Shown here piece by piece: positions 44,200-64,000 of a DNA stretch of 64,000 nucleotides (within the stretch, counting starts at the first letter, position 1; the number at the start of each line of letters is the position of its first letter). The position numbers were made by a program, and so were the translations under genes. This DNA comes from Actinophytocola gossypii (lineage in GTDB: Bacteria; Actinomycetota; Actinomycetes; Mycobacteriales; Pseudonocardiaceae). The notes beneath the pieces were generated by a model that searched no databases, was not told the origin of the DNA, and saw nothing but the letters and a program-made list of their open reading frames with translations. Location: positions 1-64,000 of the forward strand of contig NZ_JAFFZE010000019.1 in the NCBI RefSeq assembly GCF_025165815.1, written 5' to 3'.

Positions 44200-46038
44200 T
44201 CAGGCGCGGTCGCGCACCGACCGGATGCCGGCGAGCAGCTTCTCCGCGCGGTCCCGCCCCGAGGTCACGTCCGTCAGCCGCTTGTTTACCACGGCGAGCC
44301 GCTTCTGGCGCTCGGCGGTATCGAGCCGCAACGCCTTGTCCACCTCGCGGAGTTCGTCCTCGATGCCCGAGATCCGCTTGCCGAGGGCCTCGTCGAGCGC
44401 CAGCGCGAGCTGGGACTCCGCCTCGATCAGCTGCTCGGCCACCAACTGGTCCAGCGTGGAGCGGGCGTCGGCGATGGACTCGGTGAGCCACTGCTTCATG
44501 TGCTGCTTGTCCGCGGTGTGCTTGCGGGTCTTGGCCAGCCACCAGCCCGCGCCGAGCCCGACCATGATCGTCGGCACCAGCAGGATGGGCGCGGCGACCG
44601 CGCCGGCCAGCGGCAGCAGCGCCATCTTGCCCGCGCTGAACCCGCCGGTGACACCCATGAACACGAGCAGCTTGTCCTCGGCGGTCGGCGGCCGCTTGTC
44701 GGCCTGCCGCACGATGATCGGTGAGCCGCCCGCCCTGGCGAACTGGCCGCGGATGACCTCCAGCTCGTCGGGTTTGAACAGCTCGCCGAGCACGGTCTCG
44801 GTGACCTGGTTGAGCCGGTAGGACACCGACTGGCTGATCCGGCCGGACACCATCTGCAGCGCGGCGTCGACCTGCGCCGGCAGCTCGCGCAGCTTGTCCT
44901 TGTCGGCGACGTCGATGGCCTGCCGGAACCACGACTGCACGTCGCGCATCTGCCGGGCGACCTCGTGGTTGTTCTCCACCCTGGTGCGCTGGATCTCACT
45001 GCGCATCCGGACCTGCCAGCCCTTGGTGGACGAGCGGCGCTCGGTGGTCAGCTCCTCCTTGCGGGCCCGCAGCGACTCGGCCTCCTCCTCGCCGGTGGAC
45101 AGCGCGCGGCGCTCGCCCTCCAGCCGGACGTTGAGGGTGCCCAGGGCGCTGGACAGGGCACGCATGGTGTTGGCCTCGCCGAGCATCACCGACCGGCCGA
45201 CCAGCAGGTCGGTGAGCGCGGTGCGCAGCGCTGGCACCCCGGAGCGTTCCTCCAGCATGGCGACGGCCTCGGCGTTGGGCGCCTTGCCGGCCATCTCGTA
45301 CATCCGCGCGGACACCGGGTGGAACGGCGCGCCGGCGAAGCGGGGCGCGTGCTCGGCGAGCAGCGCCTGGTCGGCCTCGAGGACCTGCCGCCAGCCGCGG
45401 TAGGCGTCCACCTTGGACAGCGCGAACACGACGGTCTCCACCCGCTCGCCGACGTTCGCCAGGAAGTTCAGCTCCCCCAGCGTGAACGGCGCGGAGGCGT
45501 CGACGACGAACAGCAGCGCGGTGGCCGACGCGGCGGCCTCGGCGGCCAGCTCGCCGTGCACCGAGTCGAGCCCGCCGACGCCAGGGGTGTCCACGATCGT
45601 CAGCTTCTCCAGCAGCTCGACCGGACCGTCGACCTCGACGTACCGGGGCGGCAGCTGGCCGGGGGGCAGCTGGTGCGCGGCGGACACCCAGTCGATCAGC
45701 TCGGCGAGGTCGACCGGCACCGGTGCGAGCTGGCCCGGGTAGCAGGCACGGGCCTCCCACTGCTCGGCGTGGCCGAACACCAGGTAGGTCGCGGTGGCCA
45801 CCTCCGCGTCCACAGGGGACAGTCCCGGCTGCCCGAGCAGCGCGTTGACCAGGGAGCTCTTGCCCCGGTTGGTCTCGCCGACCACCACCGCCGACGGCGA
45901 GCCGCGGCGCTTGGCGCGGATCTCCTCGACCCACTTCGCCGCGTCCGGGTCGGCCTCGCGGAGCAGGGTGAGCAGCTTCTCCCGTGCCTGCGCGACCTGT
46001 TTGGGTAACGAGAGTTGCTGCTTGGCCGGGGCGGTCAC
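44200..46038 (-). CDS. dynamin-like GTPase 2
   Basis: 612 residues. G1 VVGETNRGKSSLVNALLG, G3 DTPGVGG, G4 SKVD, then a long helical stalk. A hydrophobic hairpin (LLPLAGAVAAPILLVPTIM and VGLGAGWWLA) follows, for membrane insertion, with a charged C-terminal helix. Resembles bacterial dynamins (IniC/DynA-type) that remodel or protect the membrane. Its GTG overlaps the GrpE-like stop (GTGA). Confidence 0.87.
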   Translation of the reverse strand: MTAPAKQQLSLPKQVAQAREKLLTLLREADPDAAKWVEEIRAKRRGSPSAVVVGETNRGKSSLVNALLGQPGLSPVDAEVATATYLVFGHAEQWEARACYPGQLAPVPVDLAELIDWVSAAHQLPPGQLPPRYVEVDGPVELLEKLTIVDTPGVGGLDSVHGELAAEAAASATALLFVVDASAPFTLGELNFLANVGERVETVVFALSKVDAYRGWRQVLEADQALLAEHAPRFAGAPFHPVSARMYEMAGKAPNAEAVAMLEERSGVPALRTALTDLLVGRSVMLGEANTMRALSSALGTLNVRLEGERRALSTGEEEAESLRARKEELTTERRSSTKGWQVRMRSEIQRTRVENNHEVARQMRDVQSWFRQAIDVADKDKLRELPAQVDAALQMVSGRISQSVSYRLNQVTETVLGELFKPDELEVIRGQFARAGGSPIIVRQADKRPPTAEDKLLVFMGVTGGFSAGKMALLPLAGAVAAPILLVPTIMVGLGAGWWLAKTRKHTADKQHMKQWLTESIADARSTLDQLVAEQLIEAESQLALALDEALGKRISGIEDELREVDKALRLDTAERQKRLAVVNKRLTDVTSGRDRAEKLLAGIRSVRDRA

Positions 46039-46571
46039 GACGGTTCCCGGTTGTATACGGTGACGATGGGGGCGCGGAGCAGTTCGCCCCGGTCGGAGAA
46101 GCCGACCACCTCGGTCTCGGCGACCAGTCCGTCGAGGCTGGCGTCGGCGGTGGCGACGGTGCCGCCCGCCTCGTGGTGCGCCGGGTCGAACCGGACGCCG
46201 TCCGGGCGCACGGCGGACACGCCGACGCCGGCGAGACCCTCCTCGATCCGCTCGGCCACGCCCGCGCTGCGGGCCCGGTCGAGCGCGTACAGGCACAGCG
46301 CAACCAGCGACCGGCGCTCGGCCAGCGCGACCTCCAGCGCGCCCGACGCCGGCACGACGTCCGACGCGGTCGGCTCGCCGGATGGGTCGCCCTCGAAGTC
46401 ACCGCCCGCGACGACGCCGTCGGCCGCGATGCCCGCCTGCGGGCCGACCCGCCGCTCCGGCGGCTGCCCGGCGCCGCGGGCGGCGTCGGCGATCACCGAG
46501 GCCTTGACCTCGATGGTCGACTCGGTGCCGTCGCCCTGCTCGTCCTTGTTGCGCTTGAACCAGGAAGCCAT
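46035..46571 (-). CDS. GrpE-like nucleotide-exchange factor
   Basis: 178 residues. The C-terminal half matches the GrpE head: RFDPAHHEAGGTVATAD, LDGLVAETEVVGFSDRGELL and RAPIVTVYN. The N-terminal coiled coil is shortened and Glu/Gly-rich. GrpE normally releases ADP from Hsp70; no Hsp70 gene is in the window, so it may serve the GTPases or a distant Hsp70. Coupled to both GTPase genes (5-nt gap and GTGA overlap). Confidence 0.8.
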   Translation of the reverse strand: MASWFKRNKDEQGDGTESTIEVKASVIADAARGAGQPPERRVGPQAGIAADGVVAGGDFEGDPSGEPTASDVVPASGALEVALAERRSLVALCLYALDRARSAGVAERIEEGLAGVGVSAVRPDGVRFDPAHHEAGGTVATADASLDGLVAETEVVGFSDRGELLRAPIVTVYNREPS

Positions 46572-46576
46572 GTCCC

Positions 46577-48157
46577 TCACCCCGCCTGTTCGCGAAGTTG
46601 TTGCCAGATCAGGAAGTATGCGCGGTGCACGACGTGCGCGACCCGGCTTTGCGCGGGTGTGGCACCGAACGATGCGAACGAGCGCCACCAGCCGGCCCGT
46701 TCCAGGGCGTAGGCGGACAGCTCCTTGTGCGGGCGGCCCTTCATGCCGAGCTGCTCGCCGATGTCGGCGCTGCTGCCCACCCGCAGCACCTCCTCGGCCA
46801 GGTCCTCGGGCATCGCGACCGCGCCGGAGGTGACCAGGGTGAGCGCCTCCAGCAGCCGCAGCTGGTGCGCCTCGGGCTTGGCGAGCAGCACCTCGATGGC
46901 GTCGTGCACCCGCTGCCGCTCGCCGGGGTCGCCGGAGGCGTGCGCTAGCGCGGTGACCGACGCGAGCGCGGCGGCGGCCTTGATGCCGTCGGCTCTGGCC
47001 CGGAACACCGCGTCGAGCCGGGCACGCACGCCGGCGAGGCCGGAGGCGCCGAGCAGGGTGCGGCGCAGCGAGCCCGCGGTCAGCTCCGGGTCGGCGCGCA
47101 GCGCGTCGACCGCGACCCGGATGCCGTAGAGGTCGAGCTTCTCCAGGAGTCTGCTCCTGGTGCCGGCCGGCACGTCGCACTCCCAGGTGGTGAAGATGTC
47201 CGCGGACATCAACATGGTCTCCCACGTCGCGTCATCCAAAGTAGACAGTTGACGGAGGGCGTCGGCGTCGGCGGAGGTGAATCCGCCGGACTCGGCCGAC
47301 TCGGCGAGCAGGCCGATGACCGGGATGACGTCGGCGACGCGGGGCTTGAGGGTCTGCGCCTGCTTCTCGGCGAGCAGGCTGGCGGCCTTCCACACGTCGC
47401 CGTCGGAGCCGGTGACCGACTCCGGGGTGATCGTGTCGGCCTTGTTCAGCACGGCGATCGCGTTCACCGGGCCGGCCTCGCGGCTCGCGGTGGCCGCGGT
47501 GAACGCGGCGAGCGCCTGCTGGTCGTCGGCGCGCACGCCCTGGGTGACGACGTAGAGCACGGCCTCCGCGCCGGCGACGGCGTTGCGGGAGGTCTGGTCG
47601 AGCTCGTCCGGCTGGTCGGCGTCCTTGTCACCGTCCTCGTCCGGCTTGCGGTGCTTGGCGGCGCCGAGGAGCTGCTCGGTGCGCTTGACCGAGGCGTCGT
47701 CCAGCGAGCCGAGGCCCGGGGTGTCGATGACGGTGAGGTCGCGCAGCACCGCGTTGGTGAGGTACGCCTCGAGGTGGGAGACCTCGTCGAAGTTCACGTC
47801 GAGGTCGTTCGGGATCATGCCGGTGGCGTCGAACGGCAGCACCTGCTTGCGACCGTCGTCGAAGACCAGCTCGACCCGGTCGACGGTGCCGTACTGGAAC
47901 CGGGTGACCAGGCGGGTGCACTCGCCGACGTCGGTGGGCGCGACCCGGCGCCCGATGAGCGCGTTGACCAGCGTCGACTTGCCGGACTTGATCCGCCCGG
48001 CGACCGCGACCTGCAGCGGCGCGGACAGCCGGCGCAGCACCTCGCGGAACCCGGCGGCGGTGCGCGCGGACACCTGGGGTTGCAGCCGGGTGCACAGGTT
48101 GGCGACGGCTGCCGACAACGGACCGGCGAGGTGCTGCTGCTCGGTAGCCGTCGTCAC
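46577..48157 (-). CDS. dynamin-like GTPase 1
   Basis: 526 residues. G1 VAGRIKSGKSTLVNALIG, G3 DTPGLGS, G4 LNKAD, followed by an alpha-helical stalk with the C-terminal half mostly helical. No clear membrane hairpin. Bacterial dynamins usually act in pairs; this and the 612-residue GTPase flank the GrpE-like gene. GTG 48157 has GGGGAG 7 nt upstream. Confidence 0.88.
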   Translation of the reverse strand: MTTATEQQHLAGPLSAAVANLCTRLQPQVSARTAAGFREVLRRLSAPLQVAVAGRIKSGKSTLVNALIGRRVAPTDVGECTRLVTRFQYGTVDRVELVFDDGRKQVLPFDATGMIPNDLDVNFDEVSHLEAYLTNAVLRDLTVIDTPGLGSLDDASVKRTEQLLGAAKHRKPDEDGDKDADQPDELDQTSRNAVAGAEAVLYVVTQGVRADDQQALAAFTAATASREAGPVNAIAVLNKADTITPESVTGSDGDVWKAASLLAEKQAQTLKPRVADVIPVIGLLAESAESGGFTSADADALRQLSTLDDATWETMLMSADIFTTWECDVPAGTRSRLLEKLDLYGIRVAVDALRADPELTAGSLRRTLLGASGLAGVRARLDAVFRARADGIKAAAALASVTALAHASGDPGERQRVHDAIEVLLAKPEAHQLRLLEALTLVTSGAVAMPEDLAEEVLRVGSSADIGEQLGMKGRPHKELSAYALERAGWWRSFASFGATPAQSRVAHVVHRAYFLIWQQLREQAG

Positions 48158-54394: not shown

Positions 54395-55090
54395 GTGGAC
54401 GCACCCGACCTGACCGGCCGCCGAACGGTGGTCAGCTTCGTCAACCGCAGCGGCCGGATGACCGTCGGCCAGGCCAGGGCGTGGGAGCGGCACTGGCCGC
54501 GGCTGGGCCGGGAGGTCACCGAGCTGCCGCCCGGGCCGGTCGACATGGCGGGCTGGTTCGGCCGCGAGGCGCCGGTGCTGCTGGAGATCGGCTCCGGGAT
54601 GGGTGAGACCACCGCGCGGCTCGCGGAGGCGGCGCCGGAGCTGAACTACCTGGCGGTCGAGGTGTATCCGCCGGGGCTCGCGCAGCTGATGATGCGCGCG
54701 GAGGAGCTGGGCCTGTCGAACCTGCGCCTGCTGCGCGGGGACGCGGTGGTGCTGCTGGAGCGGCACGTGCCGGCGGGTTCGCTGCACGGGGTGCGGATCT
54801 TCTACCCGGACCCGTGGCCGAAGAAGAAGCACCACAAGCGGCGGCTGGTGCAGCCGTCGTTCGTGGCGTTGGTGGCGTCGCGGCTGGAGCCGGGTGGGCG
54901 GGTGCACCTGGCGACCGACTGGGCGGACTACGCGGACCAGATGCTCGAGGTGCTGTCCGCCGAGCCGCTGCTGCGCAACGTGTACGACGGCTGGGCACCG
55001 CGTCCGTCGTGGCGGCCGTTGACGAAGTTCGAGAGCCGGGCCGAGGAGGCCGGGCGGGTGAGCCGGGATCTGATCTTCGAACGCCGGTAA
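54395..55090 (+). CDS. trmB: tRNA (guanine46-N7)-methyltransferase
   Basis: 231 residues with the TrmB pattern: EIGSGMGETTARLA (SAM-binding), DPWPKKKHHKRRL and VHLATDWADYADQMLEVL. Methylates G46 of tRNA. GTG 54395 has TAGGCT 7 nt upstream, fitting a leaderless start. Housekeeping gene between unrelated neighbours. Confidence 0.95.
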   Translation: MDAPDLTGRRTVVSFVNRSGRMTVGQARAWERHWPRLGREVTELPPGPVDMAGWFGREAPVLLEIGSGMGETTARLAEAAPELNYLAVEVYPPGLAQLMMRAEELGLSNLRLLRGDAVVLLERHVPAGSLHGVRIFYPDPWPKKKHHKRRLVQPSFVALVASRLEPGGRVHLATDWADYADQMLEVLSAEPLLRNVYDGWAPRPSWRPLTKFESRAEEAGRVSRDLIFERR

Positions 55091-58009: not shown

Positions 58010-58068
58010 GTCGACGCCACACGATGAGGTAATTGAGTCGCACCCCAGCGGGACCGATATCCACAGAT

Positions 58069-59115
58069 GTGACCGCACTGCGCGACGAGGCCACGACGTC
58101 CTCCCCACCGCTCGTCACCCCGCCCCCGCATCGTGCGGGCCGGTCGCCGTACGCGGAGGCCGAGGAGTTCCTGCGGGCGTTCCACCGGGCGCGACCCAAG
58201 GCCGGCCAGGTGGAGGAGCGGCTGGCCAAGGTCCGGTCGGAGATCGCCGCGACCGGGACCTACCGACACAAGCCGGCCGAGCTGGCGTTCGGCGCGCGGC
58301 TGGCGCTGCGGAACAGCGGGTGGTGTCCGGCCGACGTGCCGTGGCGCGGGCTGCTGGTGCGCGACCTGCGCGAGGTCCGGGACAGTGCCGAGGTCGCCGC
58401 GCAGTGCGTGCAGCACCTGCGGATGTCCACCAACGACGGCAAGGTCCGGCCGATGGTGAGCGTGTTCGCGCCGGACACGCCGTGGCGGCCCGGTCCGCGC
58501 CTGCGCAACGACCAGCTGGTCCGCTACGCCGGGTACGCCGAGCCGAACCGGGTGCTCGGCGACCGGCGCTACGTCGACTTCACCACCGCGGTGTGCCGGC
58601 TGGGGTGGCGGCCGCCGACCGGGCGGAGCGCGTTCGACAAGCTGCCGCTGGTGGTGGAGACCGCACACGAGGGCATGTCGCTGCACCCGCTGCCGAGGGA
58701 CGTGGTGCGCGAGGTGCCGCTGGAGCACCCCGAGCTGCCGTGGTTCGTCGACCTCGGCCTGCGCTGGCACGCGGTGCCGGTGATCAGCAACATGCGCCTG
58801 CACATCGGCGGCATCACCTACCCGGCGGCCCCGTACAACGGCGTCTACATCTGCCAGGCGATCGGCGAGGACGTGCTGGCCGACGACGCCGCGTACGGGT
58901 TGGGCCGGCACATCGCCGAGCGGCTCGGCCTGGACACGCGCACCGAACGCACACTGTGGCGGGATCGCGCGATCGTGGAACTCAACCGGGCGGTCGTTCA
59001 CTCGTTCGATGCGGCGGGCGTGACCATCGAGCACTCGGTGGACGGCTTCCTGCCCGCGACCGGCGGTGTCCGGCGCCCCGCGTTCGTGCCGTGGGACGAC
59101 GAGCCGCTGCGGTAA
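58069..59115 (+). CDS. nitric-oxide-synthase-like heme protein, diverged
   Basis: 348 residues from GTG 58069 (TTG 58033 would add 12; neither has a good SD). It aligns with bacterial NOS oxygenases: RNSGWC (axial Cys86), LRNDQLVRYAGYAEP, FVDLGLRWHAVPVISNMRLH, PYNGVYICQAIGED, RTLWRDRAIVELNRAVVHSF. In true NOS the active-site motif is NGWYMGTEIG, whose Glu binds arginine guanidinium. Here it is NGVYICQAIG: that Glu is Ala264 and the Trp is Val. The CIGR turn after the Cys is CPAD, and the last 60 residues, with the pterin contacts, are missing. So a thiolate heme protein with a different substrate is likely. Confidence 0.88.
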   Translation: MTALRDEATTSSPPLVTPPPHRAGRSPYAEAEEFLRAFHRARPKAGQVEERLAKVRSEIAATGTYRHKPAELAFGARLALRNSGWCPADVPWRGLLVRDLREVRDSAEVAAQCVQHLRMSTNDGKVRPMVSVFAPDTPWRPGPRLRNDQLVRYAGYAEPNRVLGDRRYVDFTTAVCRLGWRPPTGRSAFDKLPLVVETAHEGMSLHPLPRDVVREVPLEHPELPWFVDLGLRWHAVPVISNMRLHIGGITYPAAPYNGVYICQAIGEDVLADDAAYGLGRHIAERLGLDTRTERTLWRDRAIVELNRAVVHSFDAAGVTIEHSVDGFLPATGGVRRPAFVPWDDEPLR

Positions 59116-59137: not shown

Positions 59138-60445
59138 ATGCCTTCTCCCGTGCGCTTTCATGCCCCGATCGTGTTGCCCTGTGACCCCGCGTGTTCGGTC
59201 CTGCGGGACGCCGTCGTCGACGTGGACGCCGACGGCCGGATCACGCACTGCGGGCCGCGCACGGACGCGCCGGCGAACGCGCTGCCGGTCCGGTCACTGC
59301 CCGGGATCCTGCTGCCTGGGCTGGTGAACGCGCACGCGCACAGTCCGATGACGGTGCTGCGCGGGATGGGCGGGGACCTGCCGCTGCTGCGCTGGCTCCA
59401 GGAGATCATCTGGCCGGCGGAGGCGCGGCTGACCCCGGCGGACATCGAGGCCGGCATGGTGCTCGGCTCGGTGGAGATGCTGCGCGGCGGGATCACCACG
59501 AGCGTGGAGCAGTACTTCCAGGCCGAGCACCTGGTCCGCGCGCTGACCGCGACCGGGCAGCGGGCGGTGGTCGGGCCGGCGGTGGTGGAGCTGCCCGGGC
59601 TCAGCTGGCGCGCGCAGCTCGACGAGATCAGCGCCCGGATCGACGTCGACGGCCGGTTCTACGCGGACGGCCGGATCGAGATCGCCTACGCGCCGCACTC
59701 GGCGTACATGCTGCCGCCGGAGGCGCTGACGATGGTCGGCGAGGCGGCCCGCGCCCGGGACGCGATGGTGCTGCTCCACGTGGCGGAGTCGGCGAAGGAG
59801 GACGCGACCCAGCGGCAGCGGTACGGGTCGGTGCCCCGGCTGCTCGCCGAGGTCGGGCTGTACGGGGGCCGGGTGCTGGCGGCGCACGCGGTGCACCTGT
59901 CGGACGAGGACATCGCGGTGTTCGCCGAGCACGGGGTCGGGGTGGCGCACTGCCCGGGGTCGAACGCGAAGCTGGCGTCGGGGATCGCCCGCCTGGCGGA
60001 CCTGCGGGCGGCGGGGGTGCCGGTCGGCCTCGGCACGGACGGGCCGGCGAGCAACGACGACCTGGACCTGTGGGAGGAGATGCGGCTGGCGGCGATGTTC
60101 GCCAGGGTGTCGGCGATGGACTCGGCGGCCTTGGTGGCGTCGGACGTGCTGCTGCTGGCGACCCGGGGCGGGGCCGAGGCGTTGGGCCGGGAGGACATCG
60201 GCGCGCTGGAGGTGGGACGGTGGGCTGATGTGGTGCATGTCGAGGTGGACGACCCGGCGTTCGCGGCGGGGTTGGACGTGGCGGACGAGCACCTCCTGGC
60301 GAACCTGGTCTGGGCGGCGGGGGCGCGGCTGGTCCGGGATGTTTGGGTGGCGGGCGAGCAGGTCGTCGCCGACCGGGAGCCGACGCGGGTGGAGCGGGCG
60401 CGTGCGCAGGCGGCGGCCGGGGCGGTGACCCGGCGGCTGCGCTGA
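59138..60445 (+). CDS. amidohydrolase / deaminase family protein
   Basis: 435 residues with the amidohydrolase ligands: HxH in VNAHAHSPM, His-x-x-Glu in LLHVAESAKED, His in AAHAVHLSDED and Asp in GTDGPASNDD. Related to S-adenosylhomocysteine/MTA deaminases and other TRZ/ATZ-type enzymes; substrate uncertain. ATG 59138 lies 22 nt after the NOS-like stop, so the two are probably linked. CAGGAT lies 7 nt before the start. Confidence 0.9.
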   Translation: MPSPVRFHAPIVLPCDPACSVLRDAVVDVDADGRITHCGPRTDAPANALPVRSLPGILLPGLVNAHAHSPMTVLRGMGGDLPLLRWLQEIIWPAEARLTPADIEAGMVLGSVEMLRGGITTSVEQYFQAEHLVRALTATGQRAVVGPAVVELPGLSWRAQLDEISARIDVDGRFYADGRIEIAYAPHSAYMLPPEALTMVGEAARARDAMVLLHVAESAKEDATQRQRYGSVPRLLAEVGLYGGRVLAAHAVHLSDEDIAVFAEHGVGVAHCPGSNAKLASGIARLADLRAAGVPVGLGTDGPASNDDLDLWEEMRLAAMFARVSAMDSAALVASDVLLLATRGGAEALGREDIGALEVGRWADVVHVEVDDPAFAAGLDVADEHLLANLVWAAGARLVRDVWVAGEQVVADREPTRVERARAQAAAGAVTRRLR

Positions 60446-61177: not shown

Positions 61178-63205
61178 TCACCGCCGCTTCTCGTACACCG
61201 CCACCACCGACGGCCTTGGCTGGCTGTCGCCGCCGTCCGGCCAGTGCGACAGCGGGTTGTCCGCACTCGCGCCGTCCAGTTCGCCGGGGTGCTGCACCGA
61301 CACCAGGACGAAGTCGTCCCGGATGATCGGGCCGCAGGTCTCCGCGCCGGCGGGCACGGTGAGGAACTGCTTGACATGCCCGCGCTCGCGGCCCTCGACC
61401 GGCACGGCGAACAGGCCGTCGTTCGAGCCGAGGGCGTTGCCGTCGGTGGACAGCCACAGGTTGCCCCGGTCGTCGAAGGCGATGTTGTCCGGGCACGAGA
61501 TCGGGCTGACCTGGGACTTGTCGTACCCGCCGAAGTACGTGTCCGGTGACTCCGGGTCCCCGCACACCAGCAGCAGCTGCCAGGAGAACCGCTCCGCCGT
61601 GTTGTCCCGGCGGTGCTCCTCGAGCTCCAGCACGTGCCCGTGCCGGTTGTTCACCCTCGGGTTGACCTCCGTCGGGCCCTCCTTGCCGCCGGGGCCTCGG
61701 TCGGTGTTGTTGGTCAGCGCCGCGTACATCCGACCGGTCCGCAGGCTCGGCTCGACGTCCTCGGGGCGGTCCATCTTCGTGGCACCGACGGCGTCCGCGG
61801 CCTGGCGGGTGAAGACGTACACCTCCTCGGCGGTGAAGCCGTCGACGAACGACCGGTCGCCGCCGGCCAGCGGGATCCACTCGCCGCTGCCGTCGAACTC
61901 GCCGTCGGCGGGCAGCTCGCCGGAGCCGTCGATCTCCGAGGTCGGGCTGTCGCCGGTGAACCTGGCGACGTACAGCGTCCCGGAGTCCAGCAGGCGCTTG
62001 TTGTGCTCCCGCGCGTACCGGCTGTCGCCGCGCTTGTAGCGGCCGTCGGAGACGAACTTGTACAGGTACTCGAACCGCTCGTCGTCGCCCATGTACGCCA
62101 CGACCCGGCCGTCGCGGGCGACGATCACGTTCGCGCCCTCGTGCTTGAACCGGCCGAGGTTGGTGTGCTTGACCGGGTTGGACTCCGGCTCCAGCGGGTC
62201 GATCTCCACGATCCAGCCGAACCGGTTGGCCTCGTTCGGGTCGCGCGCCAGGTCGAAGCGGCGGTCGAACCGCTCCCACTTGCGGGTGGTCTCCCCGCCG
62301 GGGAAGCCGTAGCGGGCCAGCCGCTCGCGCGCCACCGGATCCGTCACGGCGTCGGCGTTGGCGAAGTACTGGTTGACGTTCTCCTCGCCGGACAGGATCG
62401 TGCCCCACGGCGTCACCCCGCCGGCGCAGTTGTTCATCGTGCCGAGCACGACCGTGCCGCTCGGGTCGGCCGAGGTCCGCAGGTAATCCGAGCCGGCCGC
62501 GGGCCCACGCACGTCGAACGGCGTGGTCATGGTGATCCGCCGGTTGTAGTGCCGGTCCAGCCGCACCTCGAGGCGCCCGCGCCGGTCCTGCTCCAGCAGC
62601 ACCACCGACAGCCCGTGCGCGGCGAGCGCGATCTCGAACTGCTCGCGGGTCGGGTCGTCGTCGTTCCAGCCGAGGAACATGAACGACTCGCTGGTGTACT
62701 CGTGGTTGTTCACCATCAGCCAGCGGTCCCGGTGCCCACGCCGGGGCACCCGGACCAGCCCGCAGTAGTCGTTGTTGAACCCGAACTGCATGGCCTGCGC
62801 GGCCGCGGTCTGGTTCGCGAAGTCGAACTCCGGCGCGCCCGGCAGCACCGGGTCGCCCCACCGGATGAGCACGTCCTGCTCGTAGCCGCGCGGCACCACG
62901 ACCGCGTCCAGCGTGTTCGGCTCCACCGGCTCGAAACGCAGGCCGGACCCGTGCCCGGCCGGGGAGGCGGCGGCGACCCCGACGTCGAGGACGGCGCCGG
63001 AGACCGCGAGCACCGCGCCCGCCTTGAGCACCTTCCGCCGGTCGACCGCACCGCGGACGACGTCACCGAAGTACGGGTTGTCCGAGGTGTTCGGTGCCTC
63101 GTGCGAGCAGGCGTCGCCGCAGCGGTAGCGGCAGGTGACCGCCGCCCGGCCACCGGGATGGGCGGGCAGTATGGGAAGGAAACGTGACTTTTCGGTGAAC
63201 GGCAC
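61178..63205 (-). CDS. PhoX-family phosphatase 1
   Basis: 675 residues. GTG 63205 has GGAGG 7 nt upstream. A Tat-type signal (VDRRKVLKAGAVLAV, Arg56-Arg57) lies inside a longer N-terminus; the body is the PhoX/DUF839 beta-propeller with GYEQDVLIRWGDP, RKWERFDRRFDLARDPNEAN and SCPDNIAFDDRGNLWLSTDG. Exported calcium-dependent phosphatase-type enzyme. Tandem with a second copy. Confidence 0.9.
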   Translation of the reverse strand: MPFTEKSRFLPILPAHPGGRAAVTCRYRCGDACSHEAPNTSDNPYFGDVVRGAVDRRKVLKAGAVLAVSGAVLDVGVAAASPAGHGSGLRFEPVEPNTLDAVVVPRGYEQDVLIRWGDPVLPGAPEFDFANQTAAAQAMQFGFNNDYCGLVRVPRRGHRDRWLMVNNHEYTSESFMFLGWNDDDPTREQFEIALAAHGLSVVLLEQDRRGRLEVRLDRHYNRRITMTTPFDVRGPAAGSDYLRTSADPSGTVVLGTMNNCAGGVTPWGTILSGEENVNQYFANADAVTDPVARERLARYGFPGGETTRKWERFDRRFDLARDPNEANRFGWIVEIDPLEPESNPVKHTNLGRFKHEGANVIVARDGRVVAYMGDDERFEYLYKFVSDGRYKRGDSRYAREHNKRLLDSGTLYVARFTGDSPTSEIDGSGELPADGEFDGSGEWIPLAGGDRSFVDGFTAEEVYVFTRQAADAVGATKMDRPEDVEPSLRTGRMYAALTNNTDRGPGGKEGPTEVNPRVNNRHGHVLELEEHRRDNTAERFSWQLLLVCGDPESPDTYFGGYDKSQVSPISCPDNIAFDDRGNLWLSTDGNALGSNDGLFAVPVEGRERGHVKQFLTVPAGAETCGPIIRDDFVLVSVQHPGELDGASADNPLSHWPDGGDSQPRPSVVAVYEKRR

Positions 63206-63277
63206 GTGAAGCCTCCAGGTCAGCGGGAACGTGCCGACCGTAGGGAAGCGACCACGCCGAGACAAGACCGAGCCAAG

Positions 63278-63309
63278 GGACGGAGCCGCCCGACCGGACG
63301 GCTCCGTCC
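63278..63309 (-). terminator. terminator of the second phoX-like gene
   Basis: Arms 63278-63288 and 63299-63309 form a perfect 11-bp stem with a 10-nt loop, directly beyond the 63318 stop. Confidence 0.75.
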
Positions 63310-63317
63310 GGTGCGAA

Positions 63318-64000
63318 TCAGTCCTTCCAGACAGCGACGACCGCGGGCCGCGGCTGGCTGTCGCCGCCGTCCGGCCAGTGCGACAGCGGGTTGTCCGCGC
63401 TCGCGCCGTCCAGCTCACCGGGGTGCTGCACCGACACCAGCACGAAGTCGTCGGTCACCACCGGACCGCAGGTCTCCGCGCCGTGCGGCACGGTGAGGAA
63501 CTGCTTGACGTGCCCACGCTCACGCCCCTCGACCGGCACCGCGAACAGCCCGTCGTTCTGGCCGAGCGCGTTGCCGTCGGTGGAGATCCACAGGTTGCCG
63601 CGCTCGTCGAACGCCACGTTGTCCGGGCACGAGATCGGGCTGACCTGGGACTTGTCGTAGCCGGCGAAGTAGGTGTCCGGCGACTCCGGGTCCCCGCACA
63701 CCAGCAGCAGCTTCCAGCGGAACCGCCGCGCGGTGTTGTCCCCCCAGAACTCCTCGATCTCCAGCACGTGGCCGTGCCGGTTGGCCGGCCGGGGGTTCAT
63801 CTCGGTCGGGCCCTCGGTGCCCGGGTTGCCGCGCTGGGAGTTGTTGGTGAGCGCCGCGTAGATCTTGCGGGACCGCAGGCTCGGCTCGACGTCCTCCGGG
63901 CGGTCCATCTTGGTCGGACCGACCGTGTCGGCGGCCAGCCGGGTGAAGACGTAGACCTCCTCGGCGGTGAACCCGTCGACGAACGACCGGTCGTTGCGGG
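63318..64000 (-). CDS. PhoX-family phosphatase 2, 5' end outside window
   Basis: Partial: 227 codons visible, running off the window end. It is about 85-90% identical to the C-terminal part of the neighbouring phoX-like gene by reading (FVDGFTAEEVYVFTR, MDRPEDVEPSLRSRKIYAAL, SCPDNVAFDERGNLWISTDG). A tandem duplicate with its own terminator and promoter gap. Confidence 0.9.
   Translation of the reverse strand, partial: RNDRSFVDGFTAEEVYVFTRLAADTVGPTKMDRPEDVEPSLRSRKIYAALTNNSQRGNPGTEGPTEMNPRPANRHGHVLEIEEFWGDNTARRFRWKLLLVCGDPESPDTYFAGYDKSQVSPISCPDNVAFDERGNLWISTDGNALGQNDGLFAVPVEGRERGHVKQFLTVPHGAETCGPVVTDDFVLVSVQHPGELDGASADNPLSHWPDGGDSQPRPAVVAVWKD

Follow-up and report, generated by a model that had tools for sequence, protein, structure and literature searches.

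A conserved NOS-like protein of Actinophytocola gossypii that lacks the arginine- and pterin-site residues of nitric oxide synthases

What is the function of a protein that follows the bacterial nitric oxide synthases (NOSs) over most of their heme domain and has lost the residues with which these enzymes hold arginine and pterin? The question is raised by a gene in the window, a stretch of 64,000 nucleotides of Actinophytocola gossypii DNA (contig NZ_JAFFZE010000019.1). A first-pass annotation of the letters had taken its product (the query) for a NOS-like oxygenase that probably uses its heme on another substrate. The comparisons described here strongly support, at the level of sequence, that the query is no arginine-to-NO enzyme; the substitute function is proposed with less confidence. 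The clade, in which the fold is kept under selection as cofactor, substrate and even ligand residues are removed in order, offers a natural series for probing the role of each part of NOS, and it may harbour either a new type of heme-thiolate chemistry or a use of the NOS fold that needs no heme.

The gene and its altered active site

The open reading frame at 58033-59115 on the forward strand is intact by an ORF check of the window, and its product matches the Pfam profile NO_synthase (PF02898) with E=6.1e-99 and 331.8 bits (cut-off 22.7). The first-pass annotation began the gene at TTG 58033. Judged by its relatives, the real start is almost certainly GTG 58069, because VTALRD with its GTG codon recurs in 22 of the 23 query-type loci and L065 has a stop directly upstream; the TTG start adds 12 residues and has been replaced. 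Counted from the GTG, the protein has 348 amino acids, with Cys86 and Ala264. Residue numbers in this report follow the 360-residue frame from TTG 58033, in which these two are Cys98 and Ala276. The three genes needed to follow the locus are:

58069..59115, forward strand: NOS-like gene, likely true extent (PF02898 match; GTG/VTALRD start)
54461..55090, forward strand: trmB-type tRNA methyltransferase gene, used as locus marker (PF02390; the name trmB is ours)
59138..60445, forward strand: TRZ/ATZ-type amidohydrolase gene, conserved syntenic neighbour (PF01979)

Residues 41-332 of the query correspond to profile positions 7-298 of 362, which leaves about 64 C-terminal profile positions unmatched and bears out the earlier statement that some 60 C-terminal residues with the pterin-binding part are gone. 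The match ends at 298-303 of 362 in 23/23 query-type loci, and by alignment the WSWIVPP...HRYY pterin segment is absent. Pfam found no fused output domain in the NOS-like protein, and a profile search of the A. gossypii genome returned no second PF02898 match. The nearest named relatives are Actinophytocola records of 74-84% identity, and four genomes of the same genus encode proteins identical to those records.

Aligned with solved NOS chains, the query reads NGVYICQAIG where gsNOS has NGWYMGTEIG and eNOS has SGWYMSTEIG, so that the Glu that binds the arginine guanidinium is Ala and the Trp five residues earlier is Val. It reads SGWCPAD where the solved chains have SNRCIGR and APRCVGR; the Cys is kept and CIGR is lost. 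Both changes had been reported in the first-pass annotation. The proximal Trp is replaced too (AWRN to ALRN), an addition to its list. We compared the 21 aligned rows of the query type (group A) with 42 rows of canonical NOS, and likewise two related groups, B (36) and C (5). The altered sites in the query are:

58306..58308, forward strand: Leu92, at the position of the NOS proximal Trp, which hydrogen-bonds the heme thiolate (Leu in 19 and Val in 2 of 21 group A; Trp in 42/42 canonical)
58324..58326, forward strand: Cys98, axial heme ligand by alignment, within a new GWCP motif
58843..58845, forward strand: Val271, at the position of human eNOS Trp356, the electron-donor docking Trp (Val 20, Ile 1 in group A; Trp 42/42 canonical)
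58858..58860, forward strand: Ala276, in place of the arginine-guanidinium Glu (Ala 19, Thr 1, Ser 1 in group A; Glu 42/42 canonical)
58867..58872, forward strand: Glu279-Asp280, a new acidic pair one helical turn past the lost Glu (by alignment; predicted helix 274-282)
59035..59112, forward strand: short C-terminal tail replacing the WSWIVPP...HRYYD pterin/dimer segment (aligned tails; profile end at 298/362; pLDDT 70-75)

The axial Cys is present in 21/21 rows of group A and 42/42 canonical rows. In group A it stands within an invariant Gly96-Trp97-Cys98-Pro99 (GWCP, 21/21), which recurs in the two query-type loci that the alignment omits, and the residue preceding it is Trp, against Arg in 41 canonical rows and Lys in one. 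Glu279 is likewise fixed (21/21; canonical Ala 40, Ser 2). The pterin Arg of all 42 canonical rows is replaced at position 280 by Asp in 20 rows and Glu in one, and Ala or Gly stands at the Arg382 position (Arg in 42/42 canonical). P249, I251 and N253, which are distal residues, and N269 and G270 are each found in 21/21 rows. Gln161 (20/21) and Tyr272 (21/21) are also retained; by their numbering we take these two to be the substrate-carboxylate contacts of NOS. The roles given to residues numbered after iNOS or eNOS (iNOS 376, iNOS 382, the pterin Arg) are likewise those we presume for them, except where a source is named. The eNOS numbering used agrees with E361Q in the title of entry 8ufs.

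The query thus has the NOS oxygenase domain by profile together with the axial Cys, from which heme binding is predicted, and it belongs to the PF02898 superfamily by descent, as judged from the tree and from Foldseek on the predicted model. Of the features that define a functional NOS, the guanidinium Glu, the pterin site and the proximal Trp are all missing. Compared with the bacterial NOS oxygenases (bsNOS, gsNOS 2flq; PF02898), it shares the predicted fold, the axial Cys, the heme-domain core and many motifs, and it differs in having no guanidinium Glu, pterin segment, pterin Arg, proximal Trp or donor-docking Trp. The catalytic pocket is highly conserved across NOSs, pterin donates an electron in their catalysis, and a heme-tuning effect is ascribed, tentatively, to the bond between Cys and Trp (PMC9500659). 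In human eNOS, Trp356 is located at the rear of the heme pocket, at the interaction site of the electron-donating flavodoxin domain (PMC12922734).

The first-pass annotation had suggested that the structure be predicted. An AlphaFold model of the query has a pLDDT of 96-98 over most of residues 41-330 and of 86 near the Cys loop. By sequence, the nearest relatives in the structural database are solved NOS chains. Foldseek returned eNOS and bsNOS entries as best matches to the model (TM 0.79 and 0.78; for bsNOS 4lwa, TM 0.78, rmsd 1.9, 297 columns), an agreement with the NOS fold that is to be expected, since canonical NOSs were included in the AlphaFold input alignment.

The NOSs of natural-product pathways, TxtD, RufN and PtnF, share with the query a bacterial NOS fold outside classical signalling. 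They are described as suppliers of NO whose catalytic centre is highly conserved (PMC9500659), and by that description the query, whose catalytic centre is changed, is set apart from them. Among the literature matches listed we found no report on pterin-less or Glu-less NOS-like proteins, which is weak evidence of absence, as few subscription journals were covered.

Relatives, order of losses and constraint

A maximum-likelihood tree of 110 rows places the query within a Pseudonocardiaceae clade of 66 rows (support 100/99), and the pterin segment is absent from every one of them. The clade comprises 21 rows of group A, 3 of group C, 36 of group B and 6 divergent rows; these labels rest on motifs and the tree together. 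Groups A and C form a subclade of 24 rows (100/99), none with the Glu. When the tree was reduced, support for the query's subclade was 95/62, and that for group A plus C again 100/99. The deep branches are partly weak, and the nearest canonical row (L127) joins at 94/80. Five keys, representing three loci (L019/L065, L023/L069 and L109), were omitted from the alignment for a stop near the match start or a cut frame, and short pieces (L111 and the second piece of L126) were excluded. L019 and L023, checked separately, encode query-type proteins with the Cys kept and with Gly in one and Thr in the other at the Glu position.

Group B (Kutzneria, Saccharothrix, Saccharopolyspora and relatives) belongs to the same clade, lacks the pterin segment and the proximal Trp as the query does, and is mostly found at the same trmB locus. 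However, it keeps Glu (31/36) or Asp (5/36) at the guanidinium position, Trp271 (36/36) and Arg280 (36/36), none of which the query has. Homologues of the same clade that retain the Glu had been named beforehand as evidence against the first-pass reading. They do occur in the wider clade, namely in group B, but among the query-type loci there is none (0/23). Since group B has the Glu and the query's subclade does not, the pterin loss appears to have come first and the loss of the Glu later. The simplest order suggested by the sequences begins with loss of the pterin segment and the proximal Trp, continues with that of the Glu and the pterin Arg, and ends with that of the Cys.

The last step is represented by group C of genus g22, with three rows in the tree and, after later additions, five intact loci (L115, L149, L151, L256 and L257). 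Like the query, group C has Ala at the Glu position (5/5), trmB upstream and the amidohydrolase downstream. Unlike the query, which keeps Cys98, it has Tyr for the axial Cys (5/5), and P249 and I251 are replaced by Gly and Arg (5/5). A group C model, predicted without heme, has a pLDDT of 94.3 and a TM of 0.87 to 3n6b; its distal strands are extended (211-217 and 220-227), and in the model this extension may close the heme pocket.

Four loci of the same order (L265-L268; family f59, genus g192) have Gly for the Cys and no pterin segment, and keep the Glu. They form a separate branch (100/100) and seem, by sequence, to be an independent lineage of altered NOS; a comparable loss has apparently happened twice. 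A Cys-less relative scores 275.4 bits against PF02898 (cut-off 22.7). With scores so far over the cut-off, annotation by profile only would label such genes NO synthases.

At class level, PF02898 matches were found in 56 of 394 genomes. Among the best 30 of these loci, two are query-type (A. gossypii and G019) and the other 28 have the canonical Cys motif, 27 of them also with the WSW motif by regular expression. At order level, 85 of 397 genomes had a match, and four of the eight read outside the family belong to the Cys-to-Gly lineage. Several further copies were noted on the way. Genus g22 has extra group-B-like copies (L089, L090, L150, L259), and trmB was not found in the longer stretches retrieved for L150 and L259. 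Very divergent NOS-like proteins follow trmB in genus g3 (L110, L126, L260, L261), where the copy in G004 (L126, L260) carries a frameshift. Five NOS-family matches were found in genome G216. Two canonical-type NOS copies, L263 (G218) and L271 (G806), are apparently broken by frameshifts.

The first-pass annotation had held that the gene is under selection, and the substitution rates (pairwise dN/dS by Nei-Gojobori) bear this out. In nine group A pairs dN/dS was 0.09-0.37 (median 0.20), and trmB in the same pairs gave 0.12-0.36 (median 0.20); the NOS-like value exceeded that of trmB in 3 of the 9, with the largest gap for L057/L052 (0.37 vs 0.19). Three group C pairs gave 0.118-0.138, against 0.125-0.138 for trmB. 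For the NOS-like gene alone, without trmB comparison, values were 0.034 in the group C pair L256/L257 and 0.099-0.145 in the L265-L268 lineage. Several replacement residues are, in addition, fixed. A decaying gene is therefore hardly credible as an explanation: residues have been lost stepwise, a group C copy of genus g22 (L258) is frameshifted and a congener (L178) has no NOS-like gene at the locus, but dN/dS is low and trmB-like where compared, the replacement residues are fixed, and the profile match is interrupted by a stop in 0/23 query-type loci, so that we rejected decay as close to refuted. The frameshift in L258 and the absence in L178 do indicate that the gene is not indispensable everywhere.

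Constraint is distributed unevenly within the protein. Mean entropy of the Cys loop (residues 92-104) against the core is 0.62/0.64 in group A, 0.26/1.10 in canonical NOSs and 0.21/0.66 in group B; for the loop 265-288 it is 0.45/0.64 in group A and 0.45/1.10 in canonical NOSs. Measured against the core of its own group, each of these two motif regions is thus under weaker constraint in group A than in canonical NOSs. In group A the Cys and GWCP are invariant but the surrounding loop is relaxed, and this relaxation counts against strict heme dependence.

The trmB locus and its neighbours

The gene order ABC transporter, F3, trmB, NOS-like gene, amidohydrolase, SDR is repeated across all three groups (A, B and C); many group B loci have other genes inserted. 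ABC transporter, F3 and trmB are found in 23/23 query-type stretches, 16/23 also have a response regulator, and trmB lies upstream of the NOS-like gene in groups B and C as well. In the window, trmB is separated from the NOS-like gene by genes of the TetR and bacterial-PH-domain types, as it also is in L049 and L053 (2 of 22 other query-type loci). In L067, the NOS-like gene, the amidohydrolase and the SDR are inverted together with respect to trmB. In genus g30 a canonical NOS directly follows trmB (L193-L195), and L197 is a shorter remnant. A canonical NOS in the trmB slot means that the slot predates the change, which suggests conversion in place.

The amidohydrolase ATG at 59138 does lie 22 nt past the NOS-like stop, as the first-pass annotation had it, but the coupling proposed there between the two genes did not hold. 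The amidohydrolase gene is present in 15 of the 16 trmB loci where no NOS match was found, so a functional unit of the two genes, tried by specific co-occurrence, was rejected. Its distance to the NOS-like match in group A loci is at most 130 nt in 17/23 and 506 nt in one; in five the gene is outside the retrieved stretch, and each of these five genomes has the orthologue elsewhere. The amidohydrolase is most plausibly a core neighbour that is not specifically linked. Its solved relatives include an amidohydrolase and a 5-methylthioadenosine/S-adenosylhomocysteine deaminase, and its relatives in general are deaminases and related amidohydrolases. No neighbour at the NOS-like locus indicates a substrate.

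As to the reported lack of a reductase in the window, no NOS-type reductase was found among 30 further window genes scanned (E <= 1e-10). The informative value of this lack is low, because most bacterial NOSs consist of the oxygenase domain alone, according to PMC9500659. With every first-look candidate scored, a single NOS match was found in 11/23 query-type genomes, and 12/23 have a second match that covers the profile to 358-360, as expected of a canonical NOS; the six second copies that were read (L117-L121, L144) are all canonical NOS. A role as obligate partner of a canonical NOS is unsupported, as the other NOS match is absent from 11/23 genomes.

What the protein may do

In our best explanation, to which we give not quite an even chance, the query is a NOS-derived, pterin-free and probably heme-thiolate protein that does not turn arginine into NO and has a different ligand to act on. 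The predicted NOS fold, the loss of the arginine- and pterin-site residues and purifying selection point to neofunctionalisation, in which the former enzyme has probably acquired a new task. Group A likely still binds heme, since its Cys and distal residues are invariant, and use of the heme on a different substrate, as the first-pass annotation had it, is plausible. In this mechanism Cys98 would still ligate the heme. With the C-terminal segment gone, the protein would be a monomer or loose dimer with the propionate edge of the heme open, and loss of the hydrogen bond from Trp to the thiolate would make the heme more electron-rich. The ligand would no longer be the arginine guanidinium; because Glu279 and Asp280 lie on the same helix one turn beyond the lost Glu, it may have shifted toward the vacated pterin site, with a cationic or polar group perhaps held by this pair. 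The most likely activity would be a heme-thiolate oxidation driven by peroxide or by a generic ferredoxin or flavodoxin, without pterin chemistry. The loss of the donor-docking Trp (Val271) speaks against this explanation, as do the relaxed motif regions of group A and the 3 of 9 group A pairs whose dN/dS is above that of trmB. Caution on any heme-based function is also advised by the sister branch, group C, which is conserved without the axial Cys: at the same locus and equally constrained, it has Tyr there, so the conserved function may not need a thiolate-ligated heme.

As to history, it is possible, with doubt outweighing confidence, that a NOS was converted in place by steps into a new protein family, each stage being selected, with the query as a middle stage independent of arginine and NO, and perhaps of heme as well, and the second family arriving independently at a similar state.

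The same group C evidence bears on the alternative that the query is a heme-free pseudoenzyme, which uses the NOS fold for a binding or structural role and keeps Cys98 as a remnant that group C has already dropped. Group C combines its replacements (Tyr, Ala, Gly and Arg, 5/5) with low dN/dS and a confident model, L265-L268 are constrained with Gly for the Cys and no pterin segment, and the Cys loop of group A, taken whole, shows no higher conservation than the core. Nevertheless, the Cys is invariant in the query's subclade (21/21 and the two omitted loci), as are P249, I251 and N253, which is hard to explain without heme, and we consider this alternative unlikely, though worth serious attention.

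A heme-binding but non-catalytic sensor or carrier, of heme itself or of NO, CO or O2 at the heme, acting through a partner protein, is a distinctly unlikely alternative. Retention of the distal residues and the Cys together with loss of the pterin segment, substrate Glu and donor-docking Trp would fit binding without turnover, and the ABC-transporter genes and response regulators of the query-type stretches count in its favour. However, ABC-transporter or two-component genes also occur at trmB loci without a NOS, and the protein has no fused output domain by Pfam.

Continued NO synthesis by the query, in which other residues would hold arginine and pterin would bind in another way, is very improbable. 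Gln161 and Tyr272 are retained and the overall fold is predicted to be intact, but the protein has lost the Glu, the pterin Arg, the pterin segment and the proximal Trp as well as the residues at iNOS 376 and 382, and a second NOS match of full length is present in 12/23 query-type genomes.

Two pairs of adjacent related genes were also observed in the window. On the reverse strand, 61178-63418 and 63318-63998 are neighbouring copies of the PhoX type, with PF05787 on the first copy, and 44203-48157 holds an adjacent pair of dynamin-family genes (PF00350).
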